From contig NZ_CP011025.1 of assembly GCF_000238395.3 (NCBI RefSeq), positions 558,001 through 622,000 of the forward strand: DNA of 64,000 nt, written 5' to 3'. The DNA is from Pseudoalteromonas arctica A 37-1-2 (GTDB lineage: Bacteria; Pseudomonadota; Gammaproteobacteria; Enterobacterales; Alteromonadaceae). Under the pieces are notes generated by a model. It saw nothing but the letters and a program-made list of their open reading frames with translations, did not search any database and was not told the origin of the DNA. This document shows positions 5,818-60,543 of this stretch, one piece after another (position 1 is the first letter of the stretch; each line of letters opens with the position of its first letter). The position numbers and the translations under genes are program-made.

Positions 5818-5977
5818 ATACCAATCTGCTTATGTGTGAGGTCTATTTAACGTTAAGAAAATCACGCTAGAACTAGGCGGAAATTTTTGTATCTAGTTGT
5901 TCTAAATAAAAAATTTTAACAACGTTTTAGTGAAATTTAATTCGTTAAGTTGCTCAAATATTTATGCAGGTTGGTAT
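5818..5977. repeat. MITE-like element with terminal inverted repeats
   Basis: A 160-bp non-coding segment is bounded by near-identical inverted ends: ataccaatctgc on the left, and the reverse complement ataccaacctgc on the right. Similarity continues a few bases further in. The interior is AT-rich and carries no open frame. It lies in the promoter-proximal region of the Slam-like operon. The TIRs and lack of coding capacity fit a miniature inverted-repeat element. No second copy is visible in the window. Confidence 0.55.
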
Positions 5978-44538: not shown

Positions 44539-45894
44539 ATGTCTCGTAAGTATTTTGGTACCGATGGAGTAAGAGGTAAAGTAGGGACTTTTCCTATTAC
44601 GCCTGATTTTGCAATGAAGTTAGGCTGGGCCGCGGGTACAGTCTTAGCATCGAGTGGTACAAAAGAGATATTAATAGGTAAAGATACACGTAATAGCGGT
44701 TATATGTTTGAGTCAGCTATTGAAGCAGGTCTTTCTGCTGCGGGTGTTAATGTAGCATTTGTTGGCCCAATGCCAACGCCTGCTGTTGCTTATTTAGCAT
44801 CCACTTTTAGAGCGGATGCCGGTGTTGTTATTAGCGCATCACATAATCCATATTACGATAATGGTATTAAATTTTTTAATAATTCTGGTACGAAGTTAAA
44901 CGATGAACAAGAACTTGAAATTGAAGCTTTACTTGAGCAAGCATTAAATAATGACGCTATGCAGTGTGTTAGCTCAAAACGCTTGGGTAAAGCAAGACGC
45001 ATTAACGATGCTGCTGGACGATACATTGAGTTTTGCAAAGGCATATTTGCTAAAGATTTAACACTTGAAGGTTTAAAAATTGTTGTCGATAGTGCAAATG
45101 GGGCTGCGTATCACATAGCACCAAATGTTTATGCAGAGTTGGGTGCTGATGTTATTAGCATTAACGATAAACCAAACGGGTTAAATATAAATGAGCAATG
45201 TGGTGCCACGCATCTAGATAGCCTTCAAGCCGCTGTACTTGAACATAAAGCAGACTTAGGTATTGCGCTTGATGGTGATGCTGACAGATTAATGCTTGTT
45301 GATGATAGTGGCGCTGTGATTGACGGTGACCAAATACTTTATATTTTAGCTAAAGCAGCAAAGCTGCAGGGCAAAATGCAGGGTGGTGTTGTTGGTACAC
45401 TAATGTCTAACCTCGGGTTAGAGCTAGCGCTTAAGGAAATGGATATACCATTCAAGCGCGCTAAAGTAGGTGACCGCTATGTTGTTGAGCAGCTTAAAAA
45501 TACGGGTTGGAAGCTTGGTGGTGAAGGTTCAGGCCATATTCTACACTTAGATTATGCAACCACAGGTGATGGTATTGTCGCTTCTTTATTGGTATTAACA
45601 GCGCTTATTCAGCAAAAGCAATCATTAAAAGATTACGTAGCAGGTATGCAAAAATTACCGCAAGTACTCTTAAATGTGCGTTTATCACAAAATAATGCGA
45701 ATGAAATCTTAAATACTGATTCAGTGAAGCAAGCAGTAGTAGAAGCTGAAACACTATTGGCAGATACAGGCCGTGTTTTACTACGAAAATCAGGCACTGA
45801 ACCACTCATCCGTGTTATGGTCGAGTCAACTGATTCTGTCGCATCTCAAGTGCAAGCTGAGGATATTGCTACGGCAATAAAAGCGTTATTGTAG
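44539..45894 (+). CDS. glmM: Phosphoglucosamine mutase family protein (GlmM-like)
   Basis: 451 residues, slightly longer than the usual ~445. Motifs: [12 protein letters not shown], the phosphoserine loop [18 protein letters not shown], the Mg-binding [13 protein letters not shown], sugar-binding GGEGSGHI and C-terminal phosphate loop [12 protein letters not shown]. It interconverts GlcN-6-P and GlcN-1-P for UDP-GlcNAc, the precursor of most sugars made by this locus. In many gammaproteobacteria the housekeeping glmM sits beside folP and ftsH. That context is absent here, so this could be a second, cluster-dedicated copy. Confidence 0.9.
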
Positions 45895-45914
45895 AAATAT
45901 ATATAGGTTATATA

Positions 45915-46059: not shown

Positions 46060-47214
46060 TCATGCAATCCCACGCTCAACCATCATCTCATTGAACGCAA
46101 ATCCATCCTGCCTTGACGCATTAGCAACATAAGGCGCATATACTTCAAACAGTAAACGTGTATCGCTATGCCCTAACATATGTGAAATATAAAGCGGGTT
46201 TTCGTGCGCAGCAATATGCAGCACAGCCGCAGTGTGGCGTGTTTCGTAAGGACGTCTGCGTGCCAGACCCGCTTTTTTTAGAGTGGGAAACCAAAGCTGC
46301 TTACTCACAAAGTGATTATCAAGTGGATTGGCCTTATGAGTAAATACAAATTCATTACTCGCTTGGTTTTTTAAGCGGTTGAACAATGCATAGAGTGTAT
46401 CGCACATTTTTAATTCACGGCGTGACTTAGGTGTTTTTACATCACACAACTCACCATTGACCCAGTTATGGCGAATTCGAATCAACCTATGGTTGAAATC
46501 TATATCTCCCCAACGCAAACCGTGAACCTCACAGCTTCGCATCCCTGTCCAAAAACGTACTTTAAAGTAATCTTTCCACTCAATAGGTGCCGCCTCTAAA
46601 AAGCATTGCACTTCATCAGCCGTTAGCGGGTTAGAATCAGCTCGCTCTTCTTTAAGTGTTTTGTATCGACGCATAGGGTAAGCAAAGTCATGTTCTTCAG
46701 CTGCCAAACTTAAAATCGCAATAAGTGGCCACAAGATGCCATTAATACGTTTATTTGTGAGCTTTCGTCGACCATTCTTTTTTATCATCGTTAGGCTTTC
46801 ACGAAAATAATCCACATTGGCGAGTGTAATTTCACTCACGAGTATATTGCCAAACTCAGCGATTAAATACGTATCGAGAGTATTGCGCATAACGCTTTGA
46901 TAGCTCTTCTTCCATTTTGCTTTTTGGCGGTCAAACCACTCATTGGCGTAATCGTTAAAAAATGGGTAGAGGCGATCGGGGTCTTTAGTGCGTTGCAGTG
47001 TTTCAAACTTAGCGACTTTTTTGCTATCAGGAAAATAATCACGGTATTGAAACGTTTCTAAGTCAATTTCCGCGTTCATTTTTTTGAGTGTAGCATTGGC
47101 TTTTTTTAAGTTAGCCGGTGTAGCCATGAGCTTAGTGCCTTCACGAAAGCGTTGCCCATAGAGGTGTAAATCAAATTGAATACGCCCGTTAGGACGAATG
47201 CGAATGTGAGCCAT
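46060..47214 (-). CDS. Phage-type tyrosine recombinase/integrase
   Basis: 384 residues if started at the ATG at 47214, which has a strong GGAGG Shine-Dalgarno 5 nt upstream. An in-frame ATG at 47226 would add four residues. The N-terminus (MAHIRIRPNGRIQFDLHLYG) matches the small arm-type DNA-binding domain of the DUF3596 group. A SAM-like core-binding domain spans about 90-190. The catalytic residues are visible: Arg in GMRSCEVHGLRW, His-Arg in YETRHTAAVLH, His in MLGHSDTR and the Tyr nucleophile in FEVYAPYV. It faces away from the recombinase operon and lies 165 bp after glmM, so it probably marks the left end of an integrated element. No tRNA or obvious attachment duplication is visible. 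Confidence 0.9.
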   Translation of the reverse strand: MAHIRIRPNGRIQFDLHLYGQRFREGTKLMATPANLKKANATLKKMNAEIDLETFQYRDYFPDSKKVAKFETLQRTKDPDRLYPFFNDYANEWFDRQKAKWKKSYQSVMRNTLDTYLIAEFGNILVSEITLANVDYFRESLTMIKKNGRRKLTNKRINGILWPLIAILSLAAEEHDFAYPMRRYKTLKEERADSNPLTADEVQCFLEAAPIEWKDYFKVRFWTGMRSCEVHGLRWGDIDFNHRLIRIRHNWVNGELCDVKTPKSRRELKMCDTLYALFNRLKNQASNEFVFTHKANPLDNHFVSKQLWFPTLKKAGLARRRPYETRHTAAVLHIAAHENPLYISHMLGHSDTRLLFEVYAPYVANASRQDGFAFNEMMVERGIA

Positions 47215-47635
47215 AATGGCCTCCATTAGTTAGTCGATCTATAAATAGATCTATCCCTCACCAATGGAATTCGTTAGAATTGGATCATCGGCTGGGTCGA
47301 GTTAAAGTCAGCGCAGCCGGTACGGGGTAGGGAGGTTGCCGCCTCTTTACCCCAACTGCTTATAAGATACTAACCCGCAATAATACGTAATCAATCTGAA
47401 GTATTAAACCTGACGCTAACAGCGTTAAAAATTTCTGATTTAGAACCACTAAATAACAAAATTTTTGCCTTGTTTTCGACATGGTTTTCTTGCTTCACAA
47501 TAGCTTACTTAATTAAGCGAATTGGTATTGTTTCCAATCATGCTAATACCATACACTAGGTACGAAATCGCACAACTGATTAAAAATACACTAATAAATA
47601 TAACAGTAACTGTTTATTTGTCCAGTATTTTTGTG
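47215..47635. other. Intergenic region, integrase to recombinase operon
   Basis: About 420 bp. Holds the dyad at 47236-47251 close to the integrase start, and a GC-richer patch (about 47290-47360, cggctgggtcgagttaaagt and gtacggggtagggaggttgc) unlike the surrounding AT-rich DNA. No gene is seen. The GC-rich patch could be an attachment or regulatory site. Confidence 0.4.
47236..47251. promoter_or_regulatory. Dyad at the integrase promoter
   Basis: gatctat-aa-atagatc, two perfect 7-bp arms around 2 bp, lies 10-25 bp upstream of the integrase start codons. The position fits an operator or recombinase-binding site. Function is inferred. Confidence 0.4.
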
Positions 47636-48916
47636 TTAATACTCTTCCCCTTCATCAGCATAAAAAGCAAATAAATCCTCTTGTACTTCTTGTTTCTCAT
47701 TCTGCGTATTACCTTGGTTTTTATTAAAACTTTCAAGCATTGCTAACACACTCGGTAGCTCGCTTTCGTTTTTTTCTATCGCAATGCTACGATAAGGTAG
47801 TTTATCTTCTAGTGAGTAATACACCCCTAGCTTAAGTTCACCATTTTGATATTTAATAATTTCTAGCCGCGTACTTGTAGCACCAATTAAATCTTTGATT
47901 TTTATACTTAGTAAGTCTCTGGGTGAAAAGCGATACAGAGAACCATTATTACTCTTTTCACTACTTACTTTTGATACCGTTACACGGTAAACAAATTTAT
48001 ATGGGCCTGTAAATACAGCAATTGCGGCTTCTTCATGGCTCAAATACAACAATGCGTCATTTGCTTTTTTGATGACTCCATACGCTATAAAACAATGTCT
48101 AAGTTCTTTTTTAAATGCATGAAAGTCTAACTCAGCGTACTGTAGAGTCTGTGTTTTTTCTGGCGTTTTTGTATGAAACTCGTTGAGCCCAGCTACAGAG
48201 CTGGTTACTGAACCTTCATTTACTTTAAATATGAGTAATTCCCCTTGTTGGGCTATTTCAATTTCATTACTATTTGTGCTGTAACACAAGTCAGTTAATT
48301 GTTTAGTAATTTCAGGTGTCATAACCATAGAGATAGGCAGTTCTATGTCGTTGGGTAAATGCTTGTCTTCAACTTTTCCATCGCGTTGTACTCGAATACG
48401 CTGGTGTTTCTTATCGAGTTCACAAAGTTCAAAAGGCATATGCTCTGTAGATTCAAAAACTATACGTTCAATAACTGATTTGGAGACGATAGTGGTTGGG
48501 AGCTTCTTATTATCTTCAAGGTAAGTTAAATGTTCTTTAAAAGTATCACTGCATTCACATCGACGTAATGTTGCTTGATTGTCTTTGAGGCCAATTTGAA
48601 ACAACTCTATGAAAGAGGAGTTAGTTGACGAAGTTTGAAAGCCTAATTCAATATCTTGGTTTGATGCAAAGTAGTAAGGTAGCTGTTTTGCGTAGCTGCC
48701 ATCAATAGAAAACGTCGTGTCTTTTAGGTTGGTCGATCGTTTATCAAGTATAAAAACACAATGCGCAAACAGCGGTTTTTGACCGGTGACTAACGTTAAA
48801 GAACGTTCTTTCTTGTTTATTAATACTGTTGCTGAGCTATCAGCATAACGAGTATCAATATTTTCAGTTATGTTTTTAAGTAGCTCTTTTTTATTACGGG
48901 GAATAATCATTTTCAT
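47636..48916 (-). CDS. Unknown protein of the recombinase operon, possible clamp-binding tail
   Basis: 426 residues, not recognised. It has no signal peptide or membrane segment. The chain is dominated by predicted beta-rich stretches (ATVLINKKERSLTLVTGQ, DLLSIKIKDLIGA, STRLEIIKYQNGELKLGVYY), which vaguely recall DNA-clamp-like domains. The acidic C-terminus contains QEDLF, which fits the QxxLF-type pentapeptide used to bind the DnaN sliding clamp. The start ATGA overlaps the stop of the recombinase gene by 4 bases, so it is translationally coupled and should work in the same process. The fold and clamp-binding ideas are inference only. Confidence 0.75.
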   Translation of the reverse strand: MKMIIPRNKKELLKNITENIDTRYADSSATVLINKKERSLTLVTGQKPLFAHCVFILDKRSTNLKDTTFSIDGSYAKQLPYYFASNQDIELGFQTSSTNSSFIELFQIGLKDNQATLRRCECSDTFKEHLTYLEDNKKLPTTIVSKSVIERIVFESTEHMPFELCELDKKHQRIRVQRDGKVEDKHLPNDIELPISMVMTPEITKQLTDLCYSTNSNEIEIAQQGELLIFKVNEGSVTSSVAGLNEFHTKTPEKTQTLQYAELDFHAFKKELRHCFIAYGVIKKANDALLYLSHEEAAIAVFTGPYKFVYRVTVSKVSSEKSNNGSLYRFSPRDLLSIKIKDLIGATSTRLEIIKYQNGELKLGVYYSLEDKLPYRSIAIEKNESELPSVLAMLESFNKNQGNTQNEKQEVQEDLFAFYADEGEEY

Positions 48917-50703
48917 TGTTGAACCTCATGAGGTTGGAAAGACTGAATAAAATTTTGTGCAAATTTGAGCACATTGGGGGGAAGTGATGTTTTGGGACTT
49001 AAATAAATAGTCAGCTGAGTTTTTCCTGCTGATTGTTTATAGATTTGAACAACTTCGTTTTTCTGAATAAACAGTTTCTTTAGTAACTGTAGTTGTCGGT
49101 CGCTGTTGATTTTTCGATTGACTGATAATACAAATTTACTCGTTAACCAACCCCAATCGCTATGTCTAAAAGCGGTGGTAAATGCACGAGCGTTTTTGCT
49201 ATTGCAGGCCAGCGTGATTTGTAATGATTGGCCATCATCAGAAAGTGCAACGGGAGGTAGATTGCTTAGAGCTGTATGCTGCTTTTTAGAAACCGGTTGA
49301 ATATGATGCTTACTGCCATTACCCCATATAAAGCTCAGTGAATATAAGTCGAGGGCTTTATTTTTTAGCATGGCTTTAAATATGAAGCCGAGTAACGTGC
49401 GTTTACTGTTATTAATTGATTTTTGCCAAGCTAAAGCATAATCAACAGTTGATAGCGTTTTTTTTGTTTGGACCCCTTGGCCAAATATGACCTCTCTGAG
49501 CTTGTTATCGCACAGTCTTACAGGTTGACTACGTTTTTGTCCCAGTGTTTTATTGGCATAATCAGGACTCAGCTTAAGTAATATACGGGATAGGTCGTTA
49601 GAATTAGGCTTTAGCCCAAATAAATAGCGCAGTTCACTGTGAGTATATTCACGAGATATATACGGTGAATGAGTACGGCTAACGATAGGTAGCAACCATT
49701 CAATATCGTGTAAGTATGACCAACGTGTCGTGCTGTAGTGAATATGGCCAATTTGCAGACCCATTTCATCTAAAAGTGCGGCATCATTAATCTCACACAC
49801 GGATCTGCCTTCAAACCAATAATCAAAGCGTATACTCACTGCCTTACTAGATAGGAATTCACACTCAAGTATTGTTTCCCCTCGTAGCTCATCAGGTGTA
49901 TTACTTACGCAATGAAGTGTTTGCAGCATAAAAATATGTACCCCACTGTGTCTTAAATGATGAAAGTTAAAGTGCGAACCAAACAAACAGCGCAATGCTC
50001 GTGACACGGGTAATAAGTAATAAAGCTGCCGCGAATGATATTTTTCACCTTCAAATCCAAGCAAAGGTTGATCGCGATCAGAGTGTTTCTTAATTTCAAA
50101 TAGATAAATAAGCAATTGACGATACTGTTTAGGGATTGTGGTGTATATCTCTCGTGAAGTATTACCTTTTGTTTTGCCTTCAGGGGTATTAGCAACGGTA
50201 ACGGTTAAAAGCCCAGTACGTGGTTTAAATCGAATATCTTTACGGCGTAATCTCAGAACTTCACCGCGGCGAAGCATAGCGTAAAATCCCAATAGCGCAG
50301 CGATCGTACAAAACAGACTACGAAAAGGGTATTTAGATTTATTATCTATAAGCGTTTTAATTAGGTGATCAAGTTCGTCTATGTTTAATCGAGCAGGACT
50401 CACCGAAGGCGGTACTAGAGGCGAACTAAAGTTGGATAAATCAAGCGTATCCGTTTGTTCCTGGTAGCTTAAAAAGCGTAAAAAGTTATAGAAGGTTACT
50501 TTTACATTGTCGGAGTCTATCGAGTCATAGACAGTTTTGGCCCATGCATTAATAACCTCTTCACTAATAGCATCGGCGTAGCATAGCGGGTAGGGCTCAA
50601 GTTTACTTTTAAGCGAGGTATAACTTTTAATAGACCCGAGTGCAAGGATCGCTTTCTTAACTCCTCCATACACGAGTTGTAGTGGTACAGTGATTTTGGC
50701 CAC
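48913..50703 (-). pseudogene. C-terminal fragment of an IS-split 932-residue tyrosine recombinase
   Basis: This 596-codon frame now starts with an ATG supplied by the left end of the inserted IS, so its first nine residues (MAKITVPLQ) are IS-derived. The rest is the downstream part of a recombinase. The catalytic Arg lies in MLRRGEVLRLRRKDI. A Lys-bearing beta hairpin follows (TPEGKTKGNTSREIY). Further on are HHLRHSGVHIF (HxxR), QIGHIHYSTTRWSYLHD with the conserved His and the Tyr nucleophile 10 residues later. A C-terminal extension of ~250 residues follows. All catalytic residues are in this piece, so a truncated product could in principle still be active if translated. Confidence 0.88.
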
Positions 50704-50754
50704 CCATTAAGAAAGAAATGTTATGCTATTTGCATACAAATTTGGGTGAAAAAA

Positions 50755-52972
<2,218 letters not shown>

Positions 52973-52980
<8 letters not shown>

Positions 52981-54559
52981 ATGTTAAAGCCTTCAGTCCT
53001 AGACGCTCTGGTAGAGAATTTAGATAGCTTTTCATTGCATCGAATCGAGCTGGAAACAACATATCGCTTCCGAGTCGCTCTCCAAGGTTTTCATGCCCCA
53101 TGAGACGGTCAATATCCTGATCGAATAGCTTTTCTGAAAATGTATGGCTATTAGCGCAATGACAAAAGAAATGACGTAGTTGATAAGGCACAATACCAGG
53201 CCAAACCTTTGCCATGAATAAGCGTAATTCGCGACTAGTCAGTGGTGTTGGTGTGTTTTGTTCATCACACTTATACCAAAGCTCATCTAACTCTTTATGT
53301 ATATTAAGTTGCGAACGAACAACTGATTGTAATAATAAGTACTGGTTAATTTCTTGCTGCAAGTAATCACAGAGTAAGAGTTGTCTAAGGCGTCCTTTAT
53401 CTTTAATAAAGGTAATATCAGAATCTGAATAGTAGACAGATAAAATACTGATGCTATGTGTAGGCCTTGCGCCTGTAAGAGCAATAAATAGCAGTGCAAT
53501 GCGATAGGTCGCATAATTGTAGTAGTCACGTAACGCTGATTTATTTACGTTTTGAGTATTTTTACTGCCGGCTTTTACAAACGTACTTTGGTGAGCGCTT
53601 TCGACTAATGTATGTAGTTCGTGGAAAAACTGACTGACGTGGTTATCTTCAAGTGAGCGAAGGCTACCTATTAAAGTTGCTGGAATACGTTTTTTATTAA
53701 TGCCATTTTGTGCGGTATCAAGTTCAAACTGACTTATCTCCCCCGGTTGCGATAAATAGCCAGCCTTTTTTATCGACGCTTTAATAAGGTTTATAGAAAT
53801 CCCTTTTAGAAAAAGTTCAAAATGCGCGAAAAGTTGAGCGTTCCTTGCTTCGTCTATGAGTCGTGATAAGTAGCGGTTATGCGCATCAAATAACTTATAG
53901 CGGATACGATCACTATTGAGCTGCTGGTAATACATCGCGCTAGTATGATGTGCTTTATCAGGTTCAATAAGCTGTAGTCGAACAATCGCACCCAGTGTAT
54001 TGTCGGCTCGAGCACAATTAATAAAGTAATGCTGGAACGTATCTTTGTGCATTCGCGGATGCTTTGTTAATGTGCTTGGTGTTTTCCAAGTAGACTTCAT
54101 CAGCTCAAACAAATGTACTTTGCCAGTTGGGCTTAAAAAAGGCGTATCGTAAGATTGAACACTAATAAACTTTTGAAAAAATGTATTTAAGTACGTAGGC
54201 ATAGGCTGCCATAAATACATAATATGTTTTTTGTACTTACAAGGTCGCGCATACTCAGCCCACGATAGTGTGCCATCAAAGTAAGTTCTAAAGGTATTTT
54301 CCTGACAGGGAGTCGCGCCAGATATTTTAACAAAATCAGGAATATCTTTTGGCATACTAATCTGTTTCCAGTCTTGTGTTAGCCACATAAACATTGCCAC
54401 CGCGGTCATCGCCGGGCGAGTTTTAGCATCAACCTTAGCCAGCTTCTTCAACATAATGGCTAAGGTTGTGGCATGCGCTAATGCATTAGGGTAACAACCA
54501 CCGGAATTATTTAAACGGTTACTTCTTGCAATATGGTCAGTTAAACTCACGCTTGGCAC
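52973..54559 (-). CDS. Tyrosine-recombinase-like protein with altered active site
   Basis: 528 residues from a GTG start 1 base after the upstream stop, implying translational coupling. The C-terminal ~200 residues have a recombinase layout: Arg in ALTGARPTHSISIL, a Lys hairpin at DITFIKDKGRLRQLLL, QLRHFFCHCAN and RLMGHENLGERLGSDML. The first His of HxxR is Tyr (YQLR), and no Tyr is found at the usual 9-10 residues after the GH. The nearest is 23 residues on, in MKSYLNSL. It may be a structural partner rather than a catalytic enzyme, or may use a shifted nucleophile. The N-terminal ~300 residues match nothing I recognise. Confidence 0.8.
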
Positions 54560-54560
54560 C

Positions 54561-55037
54561 TCATTTTCGAAAAGCAGAAGGCGAGGTATTGGCTAAATTA
54601 GCCAATACCTGTTGTTTAGATATTGGTATACATTGTTCTTCGAAACAACTAAGCCGGCGTTTCAGGTTTGTGCTTAAGTTAGCTTTCAAAGACAGTGTTA
54701 GTGCGTGGTCGTATAGCAATGTAGTTGCAAGTACATACTCGACGGCTTCTTGGGGATAAATCTGTAATTTTATATTTAATTCCGCTTTTAGCGGGTGTGC
54801 TTTAAAGCGCTCAAACATACCACTTGATGCAAGCGTTAAGTAACTATCGTCGTGAGTATTGGTAGTGACAGCTAAAGGGCGCAAATCTAGCAACAATTGC
54901 ACGACTTTAATTGGCAATGCATGAATACTTTGATTGGCTTTTAGCTGTACCACATCATTTTTTGTCAGTTCAATTAACAGCGGGTGAGCTTTTAGCTCAG
55001 CCTTTGAAAGTGGGATCGATTTCTGTCTGTATTTCAT
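54561..55037 (-). CDS. Small unknown protein, first gene of the recombinase operon
   Basis: 158 residues, not recognised. There is no signal or membrane helix. The last ~25 residues (PISKQQVLANLANTSPSAFRK) look like a helix-turn-helix, so DNA binding is possible. As the promoter-proximal gene of a multi-recombinase operon it could be a directionality or regulatory factor, like small third proteins in other multi-recombinase transposons. It faces the palindromic array 545 bp upstream. Role is inferred from position. Confidence 0.7.
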   Translation of the reverse strand: MKYRQKSIPLSKAELKAHPLLIELTKNDVVQLKANQSIHALPIKVVQLLLDLRPLAVTTNTHDDSYLTLASSGMFERFKAHPLKAELNIKLQIYPQEAVEYVLATTLLYDHALTLSLKANLSTNLKRRLSCFEEQCIPISKQQVLANLANTSPSAFRK

Positions 55038-55581
55038 AAATTCGTTTTTCCATACGCTTTAATTATTAAAGGATCATAAAACTTTAATTTTACTGCTATG
55101 ACGATTAAGTCATGCTAATAAGGCCTACATAATCGAAGCAGAATTAAAAAAGTTACCTTGTTAGAAATACAGAAAAGGAATAATTAGCTTCATAAATACA
55201 GAGCTAATCGCAAATTGATTTTAAATAAATTACTTTTATTTCAATTTTTAGTGATTATTCTGTTTTTATGCTTAAAGCGGATTTGAAGATGGTGAATAAG
55301 ATTCTTTATATATTTTATACATATGAAGGGGGAAAAGTTACTGATGAAGTATCATTGATTTGTCACCTTTTTGAAGTTTGTCGATTTACCCCAAAAACGT
55401 AAATAGTGTCATTAAATCGTTCATTTTAGACACGCTATTATTCATTTTAAGAAAGGCGTAGACAATATGGCTATAACGCTTAAAGTGTTGCAAGTTATAA
55501 AATAGCTAAAGTATTTTGACTGCTATAAATGCAATTGGGCTATTGAATACGTTAAATTAAATACTGCGTAACTTGTAAATA

Positions 55582-55980
55582 GAGTTCGCTGCCGAACCAC
55601 TTATGAGTTTTCGACTCAGCTTTATACTATTCAATTTGTAAAAAAGAGTTCGCCGCCGAACCATTTATGAGTTTTCGACTTGGTTTTATATTATTCAATT
55701 TGAAAAAAAAGAGTTCGGCGCCGAAGCATTTATGGGTTTTCGGCTTGGTTTTATACTATTCAACTTGAAAAAAGAGTTCGGCGCCGAACGGTTTATGGGT
55801 TTTCGACTTGGTTTTATACTATTCAATTTGTAAAAAAGAGTTCGGCGCCGAAGCATTTATGGGTTTTCGGCTTGGTTTTATACTATTCAATTTGGAAAAA
55901 GAGTTCGGCGACGAACTGTTTATGGTTTTTTGGCCCAGCTTCATACTATTTAATTTGTAGAAAAGAGTTCTAACGTGAAC
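55582..55980. repeat. Seven-unit tandem array with 14-bp palindromic cores
   Basis: Palindromic cores based on GTTCGGCGCCGAAC start at 55584, 55648, 55713, 55776, 55840, 55903 and 55967, with spacings of 64, 65, 63, 64, 63 and 64 bp. The linkers repeat tttatgggttttcg, cttggttttatactattcaa and tttg. The third to fifth cores are best conserved (gttcggcgccgaa). The outer ones vary (gctgcc, gccgcc, gcgacg, ctaacgt). The period is close to six DNA turns. It lies just upstream of the recombinase operon and points to an array of protein-binding sites. Confidence 0.92.
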
Positions 55981-56682: not shown

Positions 56683-57132
56683 ATGCATACTTCTTTTAGG
56701 CCTCATTATAATCCCGACCTTTTAGATGTGCTGAGCAATAGACGAATTAATCTTAATTCAAATCCTTTAGACGAAATCGATTTTTTAAGCCAGCGTTTGG
56801 ATATCAGTAGCATTGAAAGATTGCGATGTGAATTAAACTGGGATAGAGAAACATTCCTTAAAGTGATCGGTATAAATACGCGGGACATTGGCAATTATAA
56901 AAAAGGTGGTCAACTTTTAAATATTACAGTCGTTGAAAATATTGTTGAGCTGGCCAAAGTAGCCACTGTGTGTCTTCATTACTTTGGAAGTGTTGAACGT
57001 TGGAATAGATGGTTAAATCAAGAGAGCATACAATTTAATAACGCACCGCCGCTTGCTGTTATTCATACAATCCGTGGTCGTGAATTAATAAAAAAAATGA
57101 TTGTTAGTCTGCAAAATGGCTACGCAGCTTAA
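56683..57132 (+). CDS. Orphan Xre/ParS (DUF2384) antitoxin-like protein
   Basis: 149 residues. The N-terminal half has a helix-turn-helix-like region (LRCELNWDRETFLKVIGINTRDIGNYKKGG). The C-terminal half (FGSVERWNRWLNQESIQFNN, then PPLAVIHTIRGRELIKKMI) matches the toxin-binding DUF2384/MbcA-ParS domain of RES-Xre and related toxin-antitoxin systems. A RES or similar toxin gene normally follows. None does within the next 325 bp or on the other strand. It could be a solitary antitoxin or a regulator kept after loss of the toxin. Confidence 0.78.
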   Translation: MHTSFRPHYNPDLLDVLSNRRINLNSNPLDEIDFLSQRLDISSIERLRCELNWDRETFLKVIGINTRDIGNYKKGGQLLNITVVENIVELAKVATVCLHYFGSVERWNRWLNQESIQFNNAPPLAVIHTIRGRELIKKMIVSLQNGYAA

Positions 57133-58462: not shown

Positions 58463-59376
58463 CAAATCTAATGATACCTAAATTTTATTTTTTGTATTAC
58501 TTTTTCTGCATTTAATAGGAGTATAGTGCTACCTTTATTGTCCGCTAGTTAGGGTGAAGTAGGGAGCTCGATTTGTAATGAGTTCACCTAAACTTAGCTT
58601 AGGCGCCCGTAAAAAGCCTCAGTGTTAATCCTAGAGTCGAGTAACATAATTAGTAGCGTAACCGTGCACGCTTATTTGCTTTTGCTTTAGATATCAGTTG
58701 CCTTTACTTACTTAATAGCTACATTTTACTATAAAAAGCGTTGAGGTCTTTCAGGCCTTTTAAAAGTGATTTTTCCTAAAATTCTAGATGTTATGCGCCC
58801 CTTTTCATTCACCTGTTTTATTTGGTTATCTGCGTTTATTCACAGGTTTTAGCTGGTCAATACTGTCTCAAATGCTTAAGTCGGCGCGTATTTGTGTCTC
58901 ATGGGTAAAATGGGGCGGGTGCAAAGCTAAGCGGTAAAAGGGCTGTCGGGGAGGGGAGTGTTTTCTTCTAATAGCGGGAACTATTAGATAAAGAACTTAC
59001 ATAACGAAATTGAGGTATTGACTTCATGAGGAATGGCTTTTTTTTTCACTTTGACTAATTTAGGTGCTTTTACAGCCTCTTATATTTAGACCGATATTTA
59101 TAAAATTTTGAAGTTGGTAACTTGTTTTCCCTACAAAACGCGTCAATAAATAAGCTGCTGGTTTGTTACTGCCCAATCAATTTTTGCCAGTCATTAAGGG
59201 GTCTTTGTGTGCATAATATCTACAGTAAAGAACTGAGAGCATTTTCACTTGATTGAATTCACTCTGCTAGGTGTGGTTGCTCGGATATTTACGAAAATAA
59301 TAAACTTTTTGCTTGTTCGTTTTCTCTGCTCGCTCTGGTAAAATAATAAAAATATTTTTAAATATAAAGGATTAAT
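58463..59376. other. Non-coding stretch before ugd
   Basis: About 0.9 kb without a supported gene. A hairpin tctaatag/ctattaga lies at 58967-58988. Base composition is uneven, with GC-richer patches near 58560-58620 and 58905-58955 that may be gene or element remnants. The right boundary of the mobile region probably falls here, but no duplication matching the left boundary is seen. Confidence 0.4.
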
Positions 59377-60543
59377 ATGAAAATTGCTGTGGTCGGTACG
59401 GGCTATGTAGGCCTTTCTAACGCAATGCTTTTGGCGCAGAATAATGAAGTAGTTGCATTAGATATAGATGAGCAAAAAATAGCACTTTTAAATGATAAAA
59501 AGTCACCTATTGTTGATATCGAAATTAGTGAGTTTTTAACACGAAGCGACTTAAACTTTACAGCCACTGCAGACAAAATGGTAGCCTATAAAAATGCTGA
59601 TTTTGTCATTATAGCTACACCCACTGATTACGATGTAGAAAACAATTACTTTAATACAAGTTCTGTAGAAGCGGTAATTAAAGATGCGATAGCGCATAAC
59701 CCAAATGCAGTTATGGTCATTAAATCGACGGTACCTGTTGGTTTTACGCAAAGTATTAAAGAAAAACTTGGCATTAATAACTTAATATTTTCGCCAGAGT
59801 TTTTACGTGAAGGTAAAGCGCTGCACGATAACTTATACCCATCGCGTATTGTTGTTGGTGAGCAAAGCGAGCGTGCAGGTGTGTTTGCCAACTTACTTAA
59901 ACAAGGCGCTATAAAAGAAGATATTGAAGTTCTTTTTACTGACTCAACAGAAGCTGAAGCGATTAAGCTTTTCTCAAATACTTATTTAGCAATGCGCGTC
60001 GCTTATTTTAATGAGCTCGATAGCTACGCAGAAACCCATGGTTTAAATAGTAAACAAATTATACAAGGTGTTAGCTTAGATCCGCGTATTGGTAGCCATT
60101 ACAATAACCCATCATTTGGTTACGGTGGTTATTGTTTACCAAAAGATACTAAGCAGTTACGTGCAAACTATGCAACTGTACCTAATAACATTATTGGTGC
60201 GATAGTTGACGCCAATACCACACGTAAGGACTTTATTGCTGACTCAATAATTAAACGTAACCCCAAAGTGGTTGGTGTTTATCGCTTAGTAATGAAAACA
60301 GGATCTGATAACTTTAGAGCCTCTGCTATTCAAGGCATAATGAAGCGTATTAAAGCCAAAGGTATTGAGGTTGTAGTTTACGAACCAGTACTTGAAGAGG
60401 ATGAATTCTATCATTCTCGTGTCATTAAAGATTTAAATGAGTTTAAGCAAATATCGGACGTTGTTGTATCTAATCGTATGGTTGATGAGCTTAGCGATAT
60501 TGCAGATAAAGTTTATACGCGTGATTTGTTTGGTAGTGATTGA
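59377..60543 (+). CDS. ugd: UDP-glucose 6-dehydrogenase
   Basis: 388 residues, the short class. Motifs: [68 protein letters not shown], and the catalytic Cys in [14 protein letters not shown]. It oxidises UDP-Glc to UDP-GlcA with two NAD+. The UDP-GlcA feeds the epimerase encoded 0.3 kb downstream. The two genes likely supply a polysaccharide of this region from across the mobile island. Confidence 0.96.

Follow-up and report, generated by a model that had tools for sequence, protein, structure and literature searches.

Several types of mobile element join more than one tyrosine recombinase to small partner proteins. RIT elements consist of three adjacent active tyrosine recombinases, and SE-like multi-recombinase elements are thought to copy out through replication. 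As given here and below from the accessible parts of the published accounts, the strand-biased circularizing integrative element (SE) has the order intA-tfp-intB-srap from one end (PMC10214605) and is characterized by a strand-biased circle, a 6-bp footprint and no empty site, GInt consists of ginABCD at the 5′ end of its island with ginA first and ginD last (PMC5385486), and the host beta clamp is bound by some transposases (PMC4549789). We have analysed 64,000 nucleotides of the Pseudoalteromonas arctica A 37-1-2 genome (contig NZ_CP011025.1, positions 558,001 to 622,000; the window), in which a four-gene operon (X, Y, Z and W) and a neighbouring integrase gene (Int) form a module beside a polysaccharide cluster. 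The same gene order recurs in several genera, showing that the module is more than a chance arrangement, and it may be a new type of mobile element, since we found no described mobile element that combines recombinases with a clamp-like protein.

The module shares with SE its occurrence in marine Gammaproteobacteria, and the replication-linked copy-out model of SE is a further likeness, but the order here is X-Y-Z-W then Int, and neither a clamp-like protein such as W nor a structured leader is among the features described in the accessible part of that report (PMC10214605). GInt likewise has three recombinase-type proteins and a small protein in an operon with variable cargo; it is set apart here by its description, in the accessible part of which the gene order differs and a clamp-like protein does not figure (PMC5385486). 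The clamp-binding transposases also link mobile DNA to the sliding clamp, but they use the host clamp, whereas the module encodes its own predicted clamp-fold protein (PMC4549789). The Gamma-Mobile-Trio, represented by a similar locus in another Pseudoalteromonas (L092 10008-14769, with GmtY above cut-off), resembles the module in its marine genera and in joining a recombinase to one small protein and one large protein of about 880 aa. The definition of RIT elements does not fit, as Y is without the conserved nucleophile and the HxxR His and W has a predicted clamp fold. A preliminary description of the window, which had seen recombinase-type proteins with small partners in an arrangement that it could not assign with confidence to a named family, is supported on both points, on the basis of sequence comparisons that covered the Gamma-Mobile-Trio and SE.

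Gene content and distribution of the module

The preliminary description placed the module at 47636-55037. Its four genes are present with the sizes, 1-base spacing and 4- to 8-base overlaps that it gave, but the extent was too narrow, as Int and its leader belong too; besides these two, neither the sliding-clamp fold predicted for W nor the link to polysaccharide loci had been noticed. On the minus strand X (54561-55037, 158 aa), whose position as first gene of the packed operon is kept in relatives, lies one base from Y (52973-54559, 528 aa), which overlaps Z by eight bases (52973-52980). As had been proposed, Z is split by an insertion sequence, a plus-strand IS3-family element at approximately 50677-51944 with inverted ends, a transposase match to NF033516 and six further full-length matches in the same genome. 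The N-terminal piece of Z (51910-52980), recognized with phmmer and BLAST against intact homologs, has its final codons within the insertion sequence, and the C-terminal piece (48913-50703), which holds the catalytic part of a large tyrosine recombinase, has its first few codons there; a rebuilt length of 932 aa is plausible, given that intact homologs are mostly 886-982 aa. W (47636-48916, 426 aa) overlaps Z by four bases (48913-48916). Int (46060-47226, minus strand) is a 388-aa tyrosine integrase with an arm-type DNA-binding domain (Pfam PF12167, PF00589).

We refer to Y-homolog neighbourhoods with the order X-Y-Z-W, usually with the 388-aa integrase adjoining W, as V1 modules, and 19 genomes contain one (G000, G086, G015, G101, G036, G701, G785, G748, G705, G724, G588, G480, G708, G660, G538, G678, G797, G690 and the more distant G279). 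The samples covered the order (394 genomes) and the genus (108 genomes for Y, 107 for Int) with one genome per species, and many of the genomes counted share ancestry. In the order sample, Int (at least 58% identity) and strong Y matches each occur in 14 of the 394 genomes and both in 13, the exceptions being G665, which has Int with a divergent block, and G690, which has Y and no Int found. Within the genus, 5 of 108 genomes carry Y, and the 5 of 107 that carry Int at 84% or more are the same ones. The Int matches among those listed have E values of 1e-80 or better (order) and 1e-60 or better (genus); omitted are a weak Y match in G808 (E 9.9e-4, 54 residues) and Int matches at 36-40% in G151, G169 and G117 (order), in G059 and G057, and as second copies in G015, G036 and G101 (genus). 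Int directly adjoins W in 14 of the 19 V1 genomes, and both the five-gene module and the co-occurrence of Int with Y are strongly established.

A second module type (V2; L130, L131, L135, L136, L137, L051) lies elsewhere in the chromosome; alongside a related integrase it encodes an HD-domain protein and large proteins of about 845 and 1040 aa. In the G665 module (V3, L132 9582-18687) the block faces away from Int, and a 433-aa protein contains an internal QGDLF sequence.

The 158-residue X protein had been called helix-turn-helix-like, an assignment that we could not support: X has no family match in library scans, and a PDB sequence search gave one non-significant match (E 0.22). Y has a tyrosine-recombinase catalytic-domain fold in which no Tyr is invariant after the GH motif (position 512 is Tyr in 26 of 47 sequences) and the HxxR His position is Tyr in 46 of 47. 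The C-terminal piece of Z matches PF00589 below cut-off and PHROG integrases, and the residues R482, K515, H584, R587, H656 and Y666, a complete R-K-HxxR-H-Y set, are present in 14 of 14 intact homologs. Among NCBIfam models Int matches only general Xer and integron models, below their cut-offs.

A DnaN beta sliding-clamp fold is a good prediction for W. Its AlphaFold model (pLDDT 86.6) has the three domains of the clamp fold in comparisons with Foldseek and VIA-align, and its C terminus bears a clamp-binding-like motif. DnaN, the DNA polymerase III beta subunit, works with the clamp loader and forms a closed ring that keeps the replication machinery on DNA. W differs from it in having no detectable sequence similarity to DnaN, in its extra C-terminal tail with that motif, and in being encoded within a recombinase operon. 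A predicted clamp-fold protein beside recombinases offers a direct, testable link to the replication machinery, and recombination may be coupled to replication.

The 118 nt upstream of Int (47243-47359, minus strand) are conserved in 18 loci (17 V1 loci and G665) and fold into two hairpins with compensatory base changes. In the 18-locus alignment, 95.1% of the cells in the 26 pairs can pair; two-sided changes occur in 8 pairs (12 of 500 shuffles reach 8) and 32 cells (0 of 500 reach 32), the 14 further pair types are not above shuffles (455/500), and folding z-scores for five single sequences range from -1.3 to -4.0. Rfam contains no match at E≤1. A covariance model finds one match each in 14 of the 394 genomes, the very ones that have Int; as all 14 matches belong to the training set they are expected by construction, and the informative part is the absence of the leader from the other 380 genomes, under filters that lose weak matches. 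Upstream of the leader, 14 of 14 loci examined have a promoter-like ACTGGACA-N16-TATAnT, with TGTATA at one locus; the pattern was picked after the sequences were seen, and its N16 spacing is constant and its -10 box variable. The predicted promoter in the window is TGGACA-N16-TATATT (47597-47624, minus strand), just 3′ of W. The leader is very probably a structured RNA, with a putative function in the expression of Int; it is a new candidate among structured RNAs, linked to a single integrase family.

Polysaccharide loci and exchange of the block

In 12 of the 19 V1 genomes (G000, G086, G015, G101, G036, G785, G748, G480, G708, G660, G538, G279) Int or the block has a PF02719 gene (wbpM/capD type) no more than about 15 kb away, against a chance expectation, by our own arithmetic, of about 1% for one genome; in G748 the distance of this gene is 3.6 kb to Int and about 19 kb to W. 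Glycosyltransferase operons adjoin the module in G678 and G797 and a ugd-type gene lies beside Int in G724, such that polysaccharide genes are near the block in 15 of the 19 genomes in all. G701 and G690 are outside this count; in G705 and G588 the separated Int adjoins a phosphohexomutase gene, and the block is on another contig. Where the next polysaccharide gene 3′ of Int is of the phosphohexomutase or ugd type, that gene and Int converge in 11 of 11 cases (G000, G015, G086, G036, G660, G538, G705, G588, G748, G708, G724), with a remnant of the gene in G086 and G538 and small intervening genes in some genomes; in G480 a ugd-type gene is on the X side instead. Int may target the ends of polysaccharide operons. 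None of the six V2 modules examined (G015, G036, G101, G057, G059, G137) has a PF02719 gene nearby. Residence near O-antigen and capsule genes would have implications for the exchange of surface sugars among bacteria.

The preliminary description proposed to look for the same genes, in order, at unrelated loci in related genomes, and the genes do recur in several genera, with signs that the four-gene block moves horizontally; its converse possibility, an operon fixed at one site in all relatives, is borne out in that the kind of site recurs, but Y is confined to the few genomes of the genus counted above, cargo differs, and one block has been swapped. At the same site G000 and G015 have different cargo and G084 has no module; HipA, Fic, GNAT and TnpB are among the scanned cargo proteins, and 2 of 10 tested with PADLOC are IetA-like and NERD-UvrD-like.

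The swapped block is that of G036. With DnaN as the vertical yardstick, four Pseudoalteromonas genomes are 96-99% identical to one another and 52-58% identical to the others, yet the block proteins of G036 are 65% (X), 74% (Y), 70% (Z) and 63% (W) identical to those of the Shewanella genome G538, compared with 24-29%, 35-38%, 33% (G015 only) and 19-23% to its own genus; the Int of G036 has 84-95% identity within that genus. Both flanks of the block align between G036 and G101 (2241 bp at 85.6% and 1056 bp at 81%), which share only two stretches of about 65 bp inside it, and G036 and G538 share the block over 5.9 kb at 74%. Because the block resembles that of G538 while Int and the flanks resemble those of its own genus, these alignments argue strongly that X-Y-Z-W was exchanged as a unit, either through the recombinases that it encodes or through homologous recombination.

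Some further arrangements are seen at related loci. The same HipBA-type pair lies on one side of the module in one Shewanella genome and, inverted, on the other side in a second (L045 11957-13785; L046 853-2682), as if the module had flipped; at L043 (2783-3171) a second Int gene remnant with L042-like downstream DNA lies across the cargo, resembling traces of successive elements; and in G724 both ends of the 12.6-kb contig C81 (L040, L103) lie within Z, an arrangement that might reflect a circular or tandem form.

A proposed integrative element and its alternatives

We tentatively propose that the module represents a class of integrative element with its own sliding clamp: the large recombinase and its non-catalytic partner would be coupled to replication through the element's clamp, which would also dock on the host clamp, a new leader RNA would gate the integrase, and polysaccharide loci would be its home. 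Several observations weigh against this. No element ends were found, the compared border stretches sharing a direct match of at most 10 bp in G000 and no match in G015; the far end of the module lacks a second copy of the leader, and G084 has about 2 kb of other DNA at the site rather than a clean empty site. Y has no match in plasmid or phage records or viral contigs. In 5 of the 19 V1 genomes Int does not adjoin the block: it is about 12 kb away and broken in G748, about 3 kb away in G279, on a separate contig in G705 and G588, and not found in G690, where the contig ends. The clamp assignment of W comes from a predicted structure, with Foldseek whole-chain TM-scores of 0.40-0.54 and rmsd mostly of 7-12; W and DnaN are not connected by any sequence profile (hhalign 5.5%), TIGR00663 finds one chromosomal-type dnaN and never W in each of 12 genomes, a PDB profile search with W returns only an unrelated protease (E 0.77), and the clamp-binding-like motif is missing from 9 of 35 W tails.

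It is also possible, to a similarly limited degree, that the module resides in polysaccharide loci without being self-mobile, helps to rearrange or exchange sugar clusters or is a passenger there, and owes its spread to homologous recombination in the genes that flank it. The frequency of polysaccharide genes near the block, the uniform convergence of phosphohexomutase or ugd-type genes with Int and the missing ends fit such a resident; the related V2 modules elsewhere in the chromosome and a cargo typical of mobile islands do not, and nor does the foreign block of G036 between familiar Int and flanks, although homologous recombination in the flanks could also explain it.

We think it unlikely that the module is a very divergent member of the GInt, SE, Gamma-Mobile-Trio, RIT or Tn554 type that works alike. 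The ingredients are shared, namely an ordinary and a large recombinase, a non-catalytic recombinase-fold protein and a small protein, but the gene order differs, and counterparts of W and the leader are not described in the accessible parts of the reports (PMC10214605, PMC5385486). X, Y, both Z pieces and W match no NCBIfam family (hmmscan, E≤10), GmtY NF040693 and the 'recomb_assoc' model NF040692 included, which speaks against the Gamma-Mobile-Trio membership considered in the preliminary description; NF040692, which we take to be GmtX, also has no match at the module in nine genomes. With hhalign, V1 proteins score below 1% against GmtY, GmtZ and GmtX of L092 and L093 (one or two Gamma-Mobile-Trio sequences), V2 Z reaches 2.4% against GmtY, and X, Y and Z score at most 1.2% against Tfp, IntB and Srap of SE-6945 on pSEA1 (single sequences); tblastn of Y against plasmids including pSEA1 gave no match. 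This profile comparison is insensitive, as it also missed Z against Int (9.0%), Y against Int (1.2%) and Z against Y (0.2%), but it did find single distant Z-type sequences (L050 100%, V3 97.4%).

An equally improbable alternative is that the 118-bp element upstream of Int is not an RNA leader but an attI-like DNA recombination site that folds as a single strand. Its 74-94% identity across genera would suit a site, as would the G036/G101 homology, which breaks off no more than 4 bp from the outer edge of the element and resumes for 66 bp at the promoter. However, G-U pairs on the Int-sense strand (5-43, 6-37 and 74-101, two of them invariant) favour RNA over folded DNA, and the element is present in single copy per locus, downstream of a promoter-like sequence. 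Least probable is that X-Y-Z-W is cargo with another job, such as a defence or clamp-interfering system, on an island moved by Int alone: Int and the leader are far more conserved than X, Y, Z and W, Int can be apart from the block, in V2 and V3 a related Int stands next to a block that differs in kind or in orientation, and some cargo is defence-like, but PADLOC has no match for X, Y, the Z pieces or W, Z retains its full active site, and of the 19 genomes of the order and genus samples with either Y or Int (at least 58%), 17 have both, the exceptions being G665 with its V3 block and G690.

Neighbouring features

Between the promoter and the leader is a dispersed repeat of about 160 bp (47367-47528), an insertion that is missing from L032 and L033; similar copies occur in L002, in L095 and at 5855-5977 of the window, and L034 has one at the equivalent place. 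Upstream of X are six tandem copies of a 64-bp palindrome-containing repeat (55561-55970); the palindrome is TTCGGCGCCGAA-like, and no copy was found in the other loci compared. An Xre/MbcA/ParS-type antitoxin-like gene, identified by family matches, is part of the cargo (56683-57132, plus strand). On the Int side the module is flanked by a glmM-like phosphohexomutase gene of the polysaccharide locus (44539-45894, plus strand), and homology to the module-free genome G084 stops at 45899. On the other flank, homology with G084, G015 and G101 resumes from about 58827 (58827-60543, plus strand), a segment that includes a gene (59377-60543, plus strand) which we take to be nucleotide-sugar dehydrogenase-like. 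Where homology resumes, four Pseudoalteromonas genomes share a conserved stretch with two GTCTCA words (window 58827-58985; L033 18584-18743; L034 19240-19304; L094 13518-13655).
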